IMG/VR virus record: IMGVR_UViG_3300042562_002114
Coordinates: 1-34,225 of that record
Length of the DNA stretch: 34,225 nucleotides
Reading direction: 5' to 3' (one strand)
DNA from: a virus
The notes beneath the pieces were generated by a model. That model ran no database searches. It saw only the letters and a program-made list of their open reading frames with translations, and was not told where the DNA came from. The position numbers and the translations under genes were made by a program. Shown piece after piece: positions 2,630-31,188 of the stretch (position 1 is its first letter; each line of letters opens with the position of its first letter).

Positions 2630-2763
2630 TACGGGTGTTAGCCACTTTCGGATACATCATACTTGGAATTCTTATCGGTTTGTCCTTGTGCCTCTACTGG
2701 TCTATGGATGACGACTGGTATGAGAAGTGGGAACGCCAGGACAAGCCGGAAGGGTGGGATTGA
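2626..2763 (+). CDS. Very small single-helix membrane protein
   Basis: 45 codons starting at a GTG that overlaps the previous stop (GTGA). Residues 6-25 are one strong transmembrane helix (TFGYIILGILIGLSLCLYW), followed by an acidic, Trp-rich soluble tail (DDDWYEKWERQDK). The gene fills the gap between its neighbours exactly, which supports it. It could be a holin, antiholin or spanin component, but nothing decides between these. Confidence 0.5.
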   Translation: MIRVLATFGYIILGILIGLSLCLYWSMDDDWYEKWERQDKPEGWD

Positions 2764-2765
2764 TT

Positions 2766-3269
2766 ATGCTTTTCGCTGCACTGATGCTACTTGGGCAAAC
2801 CTCGATCCCCTCTTTCAACGTACCTCCGGTAACGGAAGTCTCCGTTGTTTTTGTAGATCGCGGTAGAACATACGTTGTCGGCACACAATCTGGAACAGTC
2901 AAGGCTTATGACGGACAGGAGAATCCTGATTCCGAGAAGAGACCCGTTCCACCGAGCCTGACAGGCCTTGCAAACGAGTTCTGGTCCATAGTGACCATTA
3001 CTGTGCCTGACAAGGCAAAACGCAAGCAAGGGGCATTAGCCCTCGACAAATCGATACAGATCACTGAAGCACAGGCTGGAGCGTTGGGCCTTGACATGGC
3101 TCAGATCATCGGAGTATTGGCAAAGAGTGCTGACGACAATGGCATTCGGACTCATTGGTCTGGCGTGGCTCTTGGCGATCTGCTTGCAAGCAAGGGATAC
3201 AAGACACGCGAAGAACTGCTGGCGGCATTAGCTGAAATCAAGAAAGCCTGTGAGGAGTTGAGCAAATAA
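2766..3269 (+). CDS. Hypothetical protein with N-terminal signal or anchor segment
   Basis: The ATG at 2766, two bases after the preceding stop, gives 167 residues. A GTG at 2727 would add 13 residues but overlap the small membrane gene. The N-terminus MLFAALMLLGQTS is a short hydrophobic signal- or anchor-like segment. A beta-rich part follows (EVSVVFVDRGRTYVVGT), then a helical C-terminus (EELLAALAEIKKACEEL). This suggests an exported or membrane-tethered protein, possibly a spanin-like or structural component. No family recognised. Stop and next start overlap (TAATG). Confidence 0.55.
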   Translation: MLFAALMLLGQTSIPSFNVPPVTEVSVVFVDRGRTYVVGTQSGTVKAYDGQENPDSEKRPVPPSLTGLANEFWSIVTITVPDKAKRKQGALALDKSIQITEAQAGALGLDMAQIIGVLAKSADDNGIRTHWSGVALGDLLASKGYKTREELLAALAEIKKACEELSK

Positions 3270-4108
3270 TGCGAATACTCAATCTAGGTGCTGGAGTTCA
3301 GTCAACCACACTCGCTTTGATGGCAGAAATTGGCGAGATTCCTAAGTACGATTACGCTGTTTTTGCTGATGTTCAATCCGAGCCTAAATCCGTATATTCG
3401 CACTTGGAATGGTTGAAAAGCCAACTGAGCTATCCAGTGATAGTCAGGAGTCGAGGCAGTTTAATTGATAACATCAAAAACGGCATAAACGGGGATGGTC
3501 ATAGGTATATCTCAATTCCAGCATTCACGGGCGACGAAGGTAAGCTGGGTGGTGTCGTCAGAAGGCAATGCACGAATGAGTACAAAATCGTTGTCGTTGA
3601 GGAAGCAATTCGCCGTGACATTTTGAATTTACCAAAGTGGGGCAGAATTCCCAAAGGCGTAGACATAATCCAAAGTTTCGGCCTGTCTTATGATGAGCAA
3701 AAACGAGTTCTCAGCGTCCAGAGAAACCACGCTCATAAGCCATGGAAAGTCGAATTCCCGCTCTACGAACTCGAAATGAGCCGATCCGACTGCGTCAAGT
3801 GGCTTGAAGATTACGGGGTTCCGCACGTTACTCCACGTTCAGCATGCACGTTCTGCCCTTATCACAGCAATGTGGAGTGGCAGCGGATGAAGACTGAAGA
3901 TCCCGAGTCATGGAATCAGGCTGTAGAAGTTGACCGCATGCTGCGAGATAAAACAATGAGATGCAATCAAGGTATGCGTGACCAGCTTTGGATACATAGA
4001 TACTGCAAGCCTTTAGACCAGATAGATTTCGAGAAAGACACAAGATTTGCGGCAGGACAATCAGCTTTCTCGTTTGCATCTGAATGCGAAGGGATGTGTG
4101 GCGTATGA
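3269..4108 (+). CDS. PAPS reductase-like (PP-loop) protein
   Basis: 279 residues. The N-terminus has the nucleotide-binding PP-loop of the adenine nucleotide alpha-hydrolase/PAPS reductase superfamily in the form LNLGAGVQSTTLAL (residues 4-17), followed by the acidic AVFADVQSEP segment. Cysteines at 101 (RRQCTNEYK), 175, 193 and 196 (ACTFCPYHS) could hold an iron-sulphur cluster or zinc, as in DndC-like members. Phage members of this family are common, but their substrate is usually unknown. Sulphur activation, nucleobase modification or a role in DNA protection are options. It is coupled to the peptidase gene by an ATGA overlap. Confidence 0.75.
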   Translation: MRILNLGAGVQSTTLALMAEIGEIPKYDYAVFADVQSEPKSVYSHLEWLKSQLSYPVIVRSRGSLIDNIKNGINGDGHRYISIPAFTGDEGKLGGVVRRQCTNEYKIVVVEEAIRRDILNLPKWGRIPKGVDIIQSFGLSYDEQKRVLSVQRNHAHKPWKVEFPLYELEMSRSDCVKWLEDYGVPHVTPRSACTFCPYHSNVEWQRMKTEDPESWNQAVEVDRMLRDKTMRCNQGMRDQLWIHRYCKPLDQIDFEKDTRFAAGQSAFSFASECEGMCGV

Positions 4109-5013
4109 CACCCTATGACGCCCTCAATTTCGGTTTCGGCTGGCACAAAGACCCTCAGGAAGTCGCTCGAATCGTCTCCGAAAACGGAATTCAAGGCTTT
4201 TCCGCAACTGCTCCCCACCTCATGGACTCCGCTCCCACTGGGCCTGTCATACTGACAAAGTACATGGACATGGTCTGGGGCAAAGACAAATGGATCTACA
4301 ATCAAGGCTCATGCGGATCATGCGTTGCTAACGGTGCTGCTATGGCGGCAGAAATCCTTGTGGCCGAAGACATAACAGATAAAGGTGCTGAGAACCCCGG
4401 TCGCCTTGACTGCATGTCCATCTACTGGGGTAGCCGTGTCGAAATCGGTGGTGGAAGACTTTCAGGGGAAGGCTCTGTCGGAGCTTGGGCGGCTCAGTAT
4501 TTGCAGAAATATGGGGTTCTCCCCCGTAAGAAATATGCATCCGTAGATCTTACGAAATACAGTGCCGCACTCTGCTGCTCAAGTTATGCCCGTAAAGGTG
4601 TTCCAGACGACCTCGAACCAACGGCGAAGCTGCACCCAATCAAGTCTTACGCCAAGGTTGACTCCTGGGATGAACTGGTCAGTGCGATCACGTCTGGCTA
4701 CCCCGTCACGGTTGCTTCCGATCAAGGGTTCAGCTATACGAGAGACGCAAACGGATTCTCAGCCCCCAAAGGCTCATGGTCGCACCAGATGATCATCATT
4801 GGGATTGACCTCTCGGACGAGTCCGCAGTGATCCTCAATTCATGGGGCAACGACTGGATCTCAGGCCCGAAACCCGACTGGATGCCCGCTGGAAGTTTCA
4901 AGGTCCGCAAGAAAACTGCGGAAAGCATGCTTAAAGAGGGCGATTCCTGGGCTTTCAGTGACCTGACTGGCTGGCAACGCAAAGAAATCCCCTGGGCGAA
5001 ACTCAATTGGTAG
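4105..5013 (+). CDS. Papain-family (C1) cysteine peptidase
   Basis: The ATG at 4105 overlaps the previous stop and gives 302 residues. An in-frame ATG at 4084 is less likely. The papain active site is complete: YNQGSCGSCVANG with oxyanion Gln67 and nucleophile Cys73, His227 in SWSHQMIIIGID, and Asn245 in LNSWGNDW. The N-terminal 55 residues contain a segment like the mature N-terminus of C1 enzymes but no long inhibitory propeptide and no signal peptide. Papain-like enzymes cleave proteins. In this position, next to candidate holins and with no recognisable peptidoglycan hydrolase nearby, a role in lysis of a protein-rich envelope or in virion maturation is an inference. Confidence 0.85.
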   Translation: MTPYDALNFGFGWHKDPQEVARIVSENGIQGFSATAPHLMDSAPTGPVILTKYMDMVWGKDKWIYNQGSCGSCVANGAAMAAEILVAEDITDKGAENPGRLDCMSIYWGSRVEIGGGRLSGEGSVGAWAAQYLQKYGVLPRKKYASVDLTKYSAALCCSSYARKGVPDDLEPTAKLHPIKSYAKVDSWDELVSAITSGYPVTVASDQGFSYTRDANGFSAPKGSWSHQMIIIGIDLSDESAVILNSWGNDWISGPKPDWMPAGSFKVRKKTAESMLKEGDSWAFSDLTGWQRKEIPWAKLNW

Positions 5014-13963: not shown

Positions 13964-16768
13964 ATGTCCAACTCAGTCAATATCACGGGATCAGACTTCG
14001 GCGAACTGACAAAAGCTCTCTCCACGATCAACAGGGTAGCGGCGAAAGCCAACGCCAAGATTGACTCGATGTTCCAGCTTAACTTCAGTGGATCAAAACT
14101 ATTTTCCTCTCTGGATGCCCTGAACGGTAAACTCGCAGTCGCCAGAATCCGCGCCGATGGTCTCGCCACAGCCCTCAAAGGACTCAAAGGAATCGGGTCG
14201 ATCAAGGTTCTCTCTGGTGGTGGGTCTGGTGGATCAGGAGGCACAGGTGGTGGTGGAGGTGGAAAGGGAAAGAGTGGCTTCTGGGTAGCCAGCAACGGCA
14301 CTTTCATGAACCCATCTGGAGACCTCAAGAACAACTTCGCCTCCAGTCTCCATGCTATGCTTCAAGCGGACAAGTTTAATAAGAAGATGGAGATGAAAGC
14401 CGCAAAGGATGCGTTGTCTGTTGAAAAGCTGAAAGGTCGGCAAGGGTCGGCTTACTTTGTTGGTCCAATCGACCAAGGCATAGCCCAGAAACGATACGAC
14501 GCAACAATTGCAAGAGCCAAGGAACGTGACGCTAAGGCAGCAGAGAAGGCAGCAAAAGCCAGCGAAAGAGCAGCAGCACAGCAAGAAGAAATGGCAAGAA
14601 AGTCTCGCAACAAGCTGATCTCGGATTCTTCTCCTGGCAATACTCTCGGTAATCTCGCGACAAGCTCATGGAGACGTAAGCTCGCACTCAAAAGTCTCTT
14701 TGATCTCCAATCAGCCAAGGGTTTGCTCAACGGTGGCTCAGGTAACCCGCTCATGGTCTCACGCTTCGGGAATCCCGGTCAGATGCCCCTGATGAGCCGT
14801 TTCCGAGTTTTTCAGCGTCCATTCCCAGGCTCAGAACGCAATCCGTTTGCCCTCGGCGACGCTGCCAACATCATGAACAATGGTGTTTACTCTGCTGGTC
14901 GTGGTATTGAAGGCCTATTTAAGGGTATCACCTCCGTTGGCACTGACTCTGTAAGAACCTTGGCGGGTTTCACGCAGATTGGATTGGCGGCAGCAACATC
15001 TTTAGGCAGTATGATTCCGGTTGTCGGCCCATTTGTTTCCATGCTCGGCCAAGGCTTGATGACAGGCTTAGACATCGCTTCCAAATCGCTAACCTTTTTT
15101 GTGGACTCGCTTTCCAAAGCCGTGGGCGGGATTATCAACTTTGTTACGAACCTGACCCTTGGTGTCAGCGGAATTCTTTCTCGAGCCGTACAAGCCGCAT
15201 CTACCCTGACAGAACTAGAGAATGCCGCAAAGGTTTACGTGGGTAAAGGTTCCGGTAAGTTGATCGACACTTCGATGGACTACCAGGCAAGATACGGGAT
15301 CTCGGCAACAGATTCGCTCAGGCTCATGACACGTATCGCAGGACAAGTTCGCCAAACAACATCGCTTTCCAGTGATCAGTCAGCCCAGGCTGCCGTGGAT
15401 ATTTTCAAACAAGTCGCAGAGGCAGGATCAGTCCTGAACCTTTCAACCGACGACATGGGCAAGATGATTCAGTCGATGATTGCAGGAAGGTATACGCCAG
15501 GTAGACGGATGGGCGTGACAGTCTCTGCCCCCATGCTGGATCAAATCTCGAAGAACGATACTTCTCGCGGTAAGCCAGGGACGATGTTTGAAGGCCGGAC
15601 GATGTCATTCCTGTCAGAATTCAAGCGTCAAACGATGCCGTTCACAGGCGACTTGGAGAAAACGCAGTACGAATTTGCCAATCAGCAGCGTAAGATTCTC
15701 GGTCTGTTCGAGGGCATGTTTGTCCAATTAGGACGGGTTGTTGAGCCATTTGCCAAGGGCTTGTTGATTGTCAGTAACACTCTGTTGACTACCGTATACG
15801 ACAAGCTCAAAGGGTTTGCAGAAGGTGCTAAGGCATCTATTGAGGACATTCGTGCTGGAGGGTCTGGAGGTGGATTCGGCTCTGCCTTAAGATCATTTGT
15901 ATATGCTGTATCGCGTGCTGGCGACTACGTGTATGCCTTCGGGCAAGCTGCGTATGATGCCAGAGACACGATCATGGAGTATGGCAAAGTATTTGGTACT
16001 ATGGTTTTGCTCGTTGCTAAAGACCTTGCTGTTTATGGACTCCGAATGACCAGCGTAGTTATCAAGATTGTCGAGGCGATCAGCAATTTGCTTCCTTCAA
16101 TAACAGACATGACCCGTGCGTTAGTGCTTGGAGCGGAATTTACAGCTAGGCAAACAGGCATGCAGTCTCCAGGCCAGAAGGAAGCGGATAAGAAATATTA
16201 TGAAGACCAATTATTGGTAGACAGAACGAAACAGAGGCTGAGAGGCTTTCAGGGTGGCGACCGATTCATGAGGGACAATGTGTCTGGGGAACAGATGTCT
16301 AAGGAGCAACAGCTTGCCAAAGCAGCCCAGAAACGCCTCGATGCTGTCGCGTCAGGAATCCCTAGATCTTTTGCCTATGGAACAGAGAATGCTCCCGCCA
16401 TTACACTCGGTGATTCCGTTGCTAAGTTTGCGGATAAACTGAAAAGCGTCAACAATATTGGCGACTTAAAAAATATTTTCGGTAATGTCCCCGACTCAGG
16501 TGCATTGGAGGCAGTTATGAAAAAACTCTCCATGTCCACAGAACGCGAAGCCAAGTTCCAACCGCTCCCGCCAATGGCTGAAAAAGGCCGACTCTCAAGC
16601 TACTTCTCCCCATCTGCATTCCGAGACGAGATCGCTGGTTCTGACCGTCAAATGCTCACCGCAGCAGAAACAACCGCAGCTAACACCAGCATGCTTGTGG
16701 AATTCCTCAAGCCCAAAAACAACGCAAATATCGAGCAACGGTTCCTTCCAGGTATGACAACAAGATAA
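13964..16768 (+). CDS. Tape measure protein
   Basis: 934 residues, with AGAGGG before the ATG. Longest gene in the window, following the chaperone module. A helical N-terminus is followed by a glycine-rich linker (SGGSGGTGGGGGGKGKSG, about residues 86-104), an Ala/Lys/Glu-rich coiled coil (AKERDAKAAEKAAKASERAA), hydrophobic helices at about 345-395 (SMIPVVGPFVSMLGQG) and again around 640-720. The family sets tail length and is threaded into the host with the DNA; at about 1.5 angstrom per residue it predicts a tail near 140 nm. Confidence 0.9.
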   Translation: MSNSVNITGSDFGELTKALSTINRVAAKANAKIDSMFQLNFSGSKLFSSLDALNGKLAVARIRADGLATALKGLKGIGSIKVLSGGGSGGSGGTGGGGGGKGKSGFWVASNGTFMNPSGDLKNNFASSLHAMLQADKFNKKMEMKAAKDALSVEKLKGRQGSAYFVGPIDQGIAQKRYDATIARAKERDAKAAEKAAKASERAAAQQEEMARKSRNKLISDSSPGNTLGNLATSSWRRKLALKSLFDLQSAKGLLNGGSGNPLMVSRFGNPGQMPLMSRFRVFQRPFPGSERNPFALGDAANIMNNGVYSAGRGIEGLFKGITSVGTDSVRTLAGFTQIGLAAATSLGSMIPVVGPFVSMLGQGLMTGLDIASKSLTFFVDSLSKAVGGIINFVTNLTLGVSGILSRAVQAASTLTELENAAKVYVGKGSGKLIDTSMDYQARYGISATDSLRLMTRIAGQVRQTTSLSSDQSAQAAVDIFKQVAEAGSVLNLSTDDMGKMIQSMIAGRYTPGRRMGVTVSAPMLDQISKNDTSRGKPGTMFEGRTMSFLSEFKRQTMPFTGDLEKTQYEFANQQRKILGLFEGMFVQLGRVVEPFAKGLLIVSNTLLTTVYDKLKGFAEGAKASIEDIRAGGSGGGFGSALRSFVYAVSRAGDYVYAFGQAAYDARDTIMEYGKVFGTMVLLVAKDLAVYGLRMTSVVIKIVEAISNLLPSITDMTRALVLGAEFTARQTGMQSPGQKEADKKYYEDQLLVDRTKQRLRGFQGGDRFMRDNVSGEQMSKEQQLAKAAQKRLDAVASGIPRSFAYGTENAPAITLGDSVAKFADKLKSVNNIGDLKNIFGNVPDSGALEAVMKKLSMSTEREAKFQPLPPMAEKGRLSSYFSPSAFRDEIAGSDRQMLTAAETTAANTSMLVEFLKPKNNANIEQRFLPGMTTR

Positions 16769-30944: not shown

Positions 30945-31040
30945 TGCTTTCCTCCCCATCCTGTAGTAAAAGTGAAAGGCTGGACCAGGCCGAGCGTGTC
31001 CTGAGGATCATACCGAAGAAGTATGCGACCTGGCAGCCAA

Positions 31041-31113
31041 CCCACGGGACAGGATTTGAACCTGCTTCGCTTGGGAATCCATTCCCACCTCGTCACCTAT
31101 TGACGACCCATGG
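31041..31113 (-). tRNA. tRNA or tRNA-like element, isotype unresolved
   Basis: 73 nt on the minus strand with a 7-bp acceptor (CCATGGG/CCCGTGG, one G-T pair) at exact tRNA distance, a D-like stem (GTCA-ATAGG-TGAC) and a full T-arm (GCAGG-TTCAAAT-CCTGT). The anticodon arm fits poorly: the best stem TGGGA/TCCCA leaves a 6-base loop ATGGAT. CCA is not encoded. Either a degenerate tRNA, an unusual one, or a tRNA-derived attachment remnant. The plus-strand frame here translates to GTGFEPAS, a familiar artefact of tRNA genes. Confidence 0.45.
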
Positions 31114-31188
31114 ATACAGACGTGTCATGACTCCAGTCAACCGGAAACCCATAGGGAATGGGGCTGAACCAGAACGTCCGATGGCATA

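Follow-up and report, generated by a model that had tools for sequence, protein, structure and literature searches.

In the lysis cassettes of tailed phages (holin, endolysin, spanins), small membrane proteins stand beside one enzyme, and the enzyme at this fixed slot can be replaced by one of a very distant family. The cassette described here resembles them in both respects. Unlike them, it carries a papain-type enzyme in every case seen, together with an exported modular partner, and no peptidoglycan hydrolase is recognised. Papain-type peptidases are already annotated in phages, as Peptidase_C1 or C1A, among the proteins of PHROG 16701 and the uncultured Caudovirales entries of BFVD; for these proteins, as far as we found, neither a partner gene nor a cassette context has been described. 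A literature search, with subscription papers mostly outside its scope, found no published description of the cassette. The enzyme itself is closest to peptidase family C1A (papain), of which xylellain (3OIS) is the nearest solved structure, and shares with this family the Gln-Cys-His-Asn site, the Q-x5-C spacing, the NSWG motif and the papain fold. It differs from the known members in its identity of only about 20-28% to them, in its own N-terminal extension of about 60 aa with a conserved LNFGFGW, and in its C-terminal GDS...LNW region.

The window, i.e. the whole stretch of DNA analysed, comprises the 34,225 bases of an IMG/VR virus record and lacks the portal gene; in the near relatives G001 and G002, portal and fibre genes precede the sequence that corresponds to window position 108. 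At 31040-31114 on the minus strand, ARAGORN reports a tRNA-like gene whose anticodon is incomplete.

A papain-type protease and its gene cassette

The last gene of the cassette, at 4105-5013 on the plus strand, is an intact open reading frame of 302 codons encoding a papain-type (C1A) cysteine protease of 302 aa, hereafter family I. A sequence-only reading had claimed a complete papain-like peptidase at this place, and the claim is confirmed: the catalytic codons are those of Gln67 (4303-4305), Cys73 (4321-4323), His227 (4783-4785) and Asn245 (4837-4839), and Pfam Peptidase_C1 (PF00112) matches above its cut-off of 20.7 bits, with a score of 30.1 (E 6.4e-7, and 7.7e-9 when the whole record was searched). 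PHROG 16701, named 'peptidase', matches as well (E 3e-10). No substitution of these four residues occurs in 11 phage and plasmid homologues, at identities down to 27%, or in a set of 23 sequences that includes cellular C1 peptidases. Among 12 near relatives the mean dN/dS of the gene is about 0.05, and relatives at 93-100% identity differ mostly by silent changes; as judged from these substitutions, the gene is under strong purifying selection, and it is no chance ORF. The start at 4105, which gives an ATGA overlap, is favoured by the relatives, and the alternative in-frame ATG at 4084 falls within the upstream gene. The Pfam scan of the protein gave only Peptidase_C1 and a sub-threshold C39, with no match to CHAP, NlpC-P60 or the I29 pro-domain. 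Neither a signal peptide nor a wall-binding domain was recognised in it.

Structure prediction, which had been proposed as a check, gave a confident papain fold. The AlphaFold2 model, built on a 22-sequence alignment, has a mean pLDDT of 82.6 and a pTM of 0.85 (an earlier model from 5 sequences, with a pLDDT of 45.5, was dropped), and its best PDB match is xylellain (E 1.7e-11), followed by procathepsins and cathepsins. In the model Cys73 opens the long helix 72-93, His227 lies on strand 221-235 and Asn245 comes right after strand 240-244, a predicted placement that is the one expected for papain. The profile score above cut-off, the order and spacing of the residues and the papain fold all place this predicted peptidase in family C1A, and its papain-type identity is solid.

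The cassette is encoded on one strand within the structural-gene operon, and its order is two-TM protein, nuclease, small membrane proteins, exported partner, protease. In the window, where all these genes are on the plus strand, a gene of unknown function (108-683, 191 aa) follows the fibre/LamG genes. Next to it lies that of a 69-aa protein with two hydrophobic segments (683-892), which has a weak match to holin PHROG 5308 (E 0.044). A staphylococcal-nuclease-like protein is encoded at 1131-1490; in related cassettes the N-termini of several homologues resemble signal peptides, and the gene is frequent before the partner, yet missing from many cassettes. Then follow an 86-aa protein with two predicted TM helices (1492-1752), a 111-aa membrane protein with about one TM segment that is present in most cassettes (1788-2123), a 79-aa protein with CPKGNC and CPNGACK motifs that is kept in close relatives (2208-2447), and a 60-aa protein conserved in the cassette, whose N-terminal stretch is weakly hydrophobic (2447-2629). 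By eye, small cysteine proteins of similar look to the 79-aa product occur in G013 and in plasmid pPLIM01. The exported partner is encoded at 2727-3269, with a probable true start at ATG 2766. Candidate holins had been placed upstream of the protease by the sequence-only reading: small membrane proteins are indeed found there, and two-TM proteins are adjacent, but only the 683-892 product has any holin match in PHROG. Because this one membrane protein alone matches, and weakly, the label 'holin' is a guess.

Between partner and protease the window carries a PAPS-reductase-like gene (3269-4108), which we regard as an insertion and do not count in the function of the cassette. The same insert is present in G003 and L021 and absent from G001 and G002, the rest of the cassette being unchanged. 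In a few loci (L166, L167, L173) this junction carries accessory genes as well, named by eye as methylase, acetyltransferase-like or PAPS-reductase-like, and the short gene overlaps are mostly kept.

The upstream partner and its exchange with the protease

The sequence-only reading missed the exported partner and the unit of exchange that it forms with the protease. The partner consists of an N-terminal signal or anchor with a short beta-like segment (VVFVDRGRTYVVGTQSGTV), a proline-rich linker and a C-terminal domain, which in the window is of the type specific to family I proteases; its N-terminus is predicted to be a signal peptide or a membrane anchor. No solved structure resembles it convincingly. 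When 12 divergent loci were aligned by their protease genes, it lay upstream of the protease in every one, usually with a 4-base overlap, and a six-frame search found it in 17 of 18 records, the 18th of which begins inside the protease gene. In G004 a partner homologue at 14086-14622 has one in-frame stop in the matched stretch, possibly reflecting a different start or stop, a decayed copy or a sequencing error.

Loci fetched with the protease necessarily contain it, and therefore the swap test was anchored on the gene at 108-683, with which 80 loci were fetched. The partner is present in 54 of them, and in 51 of these a papain-type protease is encoded downstream of it, with the 4-base overlap in 45. 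Two of the three other loci end within 500 bases, and in the third (L022) the protease is cut by the contig end. Thus, a papain-type protease follows the partner wherever the partner is present and there is enough downstream sequence. Only 15 of the 51 downstream proteases belong to family I; the other 36 form a second family, family II, which scores higher than the window protease against Peptidase_C1 (45 bits), has Q58, C64, H197 and N219 invariant in all 36 and has no signal peptide either. The family I profile misses family II, and a profile-profile comparison aligns the two with 75% probability. A 595-kb uncultured megaphage record (LR756511.1, 481834-482511) also encodes a relative of the family II protease, 31% identical. 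Downstream of the family II protease in L110 and L173 there is a Mu-F-like minor head gene of 579-583 aa, as against about 300 elsewhere, with an insertion after FPPFHPGC that looks intein-like and was so named by eye (VLGETPVITSG..., TPNHMILTPSGW).

The N-terminal parts of the partner are homologous between the family I and family II groups (z 12-16 against shuffled sequences), whereas the C-terminal parts are not (z -1 to 1). Moreover, the type of C-terminal part tracks the protease family in 15 of 15 cases for family I and 36 of 36 for family II, that is, in 51 of 51. Since the C-terminal part changes with the protease while the N-terminal part stays homologous, the C-terminal domain and the protease are exchanged as one unit, a conclusion that we consider solid; the exchange point therefore lies in or near the proline-rich linker. 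The sequences cluster, the 36 of family II into 20 clusters at 95% identity and 6 at 90%, and the 15 of family I into 3 at 95%, so that the independent cases are fewer than 51. It must also be taken into account that joint inheritance of neighbouring domains is no proof of physical contact between partner and protease. A thioredoxin-like nature of the family II partner C-terminal domain, suggested by a resemblance seen by eye, found no support.

Relatives, probable host and search for lytic enzymes

The proposed search for homologues and their neighbourhoods, besides revealing the constant upstream partner, retrieved 28 IMG/VR loci at 42-100% identity. The window protease had no match among 50,697 GenBank phages, nor did its homologues from G014 or pPLIM01 when used as queries. 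A first scan of bacterial and archaeal genomes found no homologue, and a second only general C1 peptidases at 23-28% identity. The sole match among 72,556 plasmids was pPLIM01 of Planctopirus limnophila DSM 3776 (NC_014149.1; L106, 1-37010), at 28% identity. This plasmid has terminase, portal, ClpP-type head protease, capsid, tail and integrase genes, a nearly full tailed-phage set, and thus looks like a phage-plasmid; in the genome paper it is described as a plasmid, without mention of phage (PMC3035269). Its protease homologue keeps the four active-site residues and, unlike the window enzyme, has an N-terminal TM helix of its own, which predicts that the enzyme is placed in or across the membrane. 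As in the window, the gene before it encodes a membrane protein of the partner layout, with TM segments, a lipobox-like LAGC, a proline-rich linker and a small C-terminal domain; no sequence homology to the partner was detectable, and it was not accepted as a partner homologue. A small exported-looking cysteine protein follows the protease homologue. CsrA-like regulator genes occur in pPLIM01 and in G008 (L030), G011 (L051) and G014 (L056).

On the basis of this one 28%-identical plasmid homologue and of the cassette layout, the virus family probably infects Planctomycetes. Homologues of the major capsid protein, terminase and tail proteins matched only distant, mixed phages and were set aside as a guide to the host. 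A high protein content has been reported for planctomycete envelopes (PMC3035269). Later work found peptidoglycan in the phylum, being reported in Planctomycetia according to work cited in PMC10632474, and in P. limnophila most peptidoglycan synthesis genes are dispensable (PMC10632474). A thiol protease as lytic enzyme would fit a host with such an envelope.

The lack of a recognisable peptidoglycan hydrolase near the protease, part of the sequence-only reading, was borne out by Pfam and six-frame searches, and no conventional endolysin was recognised elsewhere in the genomes covered. Two distant relatives, G008 (35,982 bases) and G011 (37,226 bases), have direct terminal repeats of 127 and 99 bases, respectively, and are therefore taken as complete. 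Pfam scans of called proteins found no peptidoglycan hydrolase in these two, in G013 and G014, which are nearly full-length, in the window supplemented with part of its missing region from G001, or in pPLIM01. Six-frame searches of 11 records with Amidase_2, Phage_lysozyme, Peptidase_M23, CHAP and SLT gave nothing above cut-off, and Amidase_2 and Phage_lysozyme were also absent from 12 further records carrying the gene at 108-683. An SLT match in G013 was judged to be noise, being sub-threshold (11 bits) and falling within an overlapping ParB-like ORF. A peptidoglycan hydrolase divergent enough to escape profile searches could be hidden among the short unknown proteins.

Possible roles of the cassette

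A complete papain-type enzyme, an exported partner and no recognised wall-degrading enzyme together lead us to propose that the cassette may open or modify a protein-rich envelope by proteolysis. Considering the active site, the predicted fold, the purifying selection, the constant pairing with the partner, their joint exchange and the lack of a recognised hydrolase, we give an even chance to a cassette for lysis or envelope opening in temperate tailed phages of planctomycetes, with the protease as the component that cuts protein. The late operon would make holin-like small membrane proteins, the exported partner and the protease. The partner would cross the inner membrane by its own signal or anchor; the signal-less proteases of families I and II may reach the periplasm once the membrane proteins open the inner membrane, and the pPLIM01-type enzyme would get there by its N-terminal anchor. 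The C-terminal domain of the partner, held on its proline-rich linker, might then bind the cognate protease and anchor, activate or restrain it, and the protease would cut envelope proteins late in infection, in the role filled elsewhere by a peptidoglycan hydrolase. The bolder form of this proposal, a protein-based lysis in which a papain-type protease and an exported, exchangeable adaptor domain replace the endolysin and no peptidoglycan hydrolase takes part, is tentative. The sequence-only reading had already suggested a protease as lysis enzyme for hosts with protein-rich envelopes: its observation is confirmed and its interpretation partly supported, since the envelope idea gains weight from the only plasmid homologue being on a planctomycete phage-like plasmid and no endolysin is recognised, while lysis itself is something we infer. 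Neither of the two findings named there as refuting it, a conventional endolysin gene or homologues linked to head assembly only, was obtained in the genomes covered.

The position of the cassette, directly after the fibre/LamG genes in most relatives, could also mean that a virion-borne protease, together with the fibres, breaks down a surface layer of protein and thereby lets the tail reach the membrane, for which the reported protein-rich envelopes would be a suitable target. We consider this not very likely, since the signal or anchor of the partner and the TM helix of the pPLIM01 enzyme suit insertion into the producing cell and not into a virion, and in G014 the cassette precedes tail genes, away from the portal region. 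The adjoining fibre and capsid genes might instead point to a protease that processes fibre or head proteins. The cassette does precede HK97-type capsid genes in most relatives; however, S78 or ClpP-type head proteases are separately present in the HK97-type relatives and in pPLIM01, and in G011 the unchanged cassette is followed by a scaffold/coat-like set that has an SPP1-type portal but lacks an S78 protease. Because it occurs with different head types, linkage is not to head assembly only, and a general head-maturation role, one form of the virion protein processing considered by the sequence-only reading, was rejected as unlikely. An exported partner, moreover, makes little sense for virion assembly in the cytoplasm, and virion maturation is highly improbable.

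The position, the holin-like neighbours and the lack of another recognised hydrolase would equally suit an endolysin of unusual family, in which the papain-type enzyme cuts the peptide cross-links of the peptidoglycan reported in Planctomycetia. The fold of the protease also matches phage proteins named N-acetylmuramidase (fragment) and peptidoglycan-binding-like, which suggests that C1 domains occur in proteins so named. Nevertheless, sequence and fold match protein peptidases of the cathepsin/xylellain type, which in a published classification cluster apart from NlpC/P60 and CHAP (PMC10318531), and with neither a CHAP match nor a recognised wall-binding domain we find such an endolysin unlikely. 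Integrases are encoded by phages of this group, and the partner and the nuclease homologues of several cassettes look exported, so that nuclease, membrane proteins and protease might have a periplasmic action directed at other phages, or alter the lysogen's surface. Such superinfection exclusion or envelope remodelling seems rather improbable, as the cassette lies in a same-strand structural-gene operon, suggesting late expression, and the nuclease is so often missing.

If the proposed envelope-opening role is true, the cassette would provide a tailed-phage lysis enzyme that cuts protein and not peptidoglycan, and a natural tool for the long-disputed question of what holds planctomycete cells together. 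The joint exchange of C-terminal domain and protease directly predicts which of these would bind each other, and with P. limnophila there is a genetically tractable host that has a homologue on its phage-like plasmid. Should lysis prove wrong, the pair of exported partner and papain-type protease still forms a conserved unit in a widespread group of uncultured phages, a unit that is, as far as we found, undescribed.
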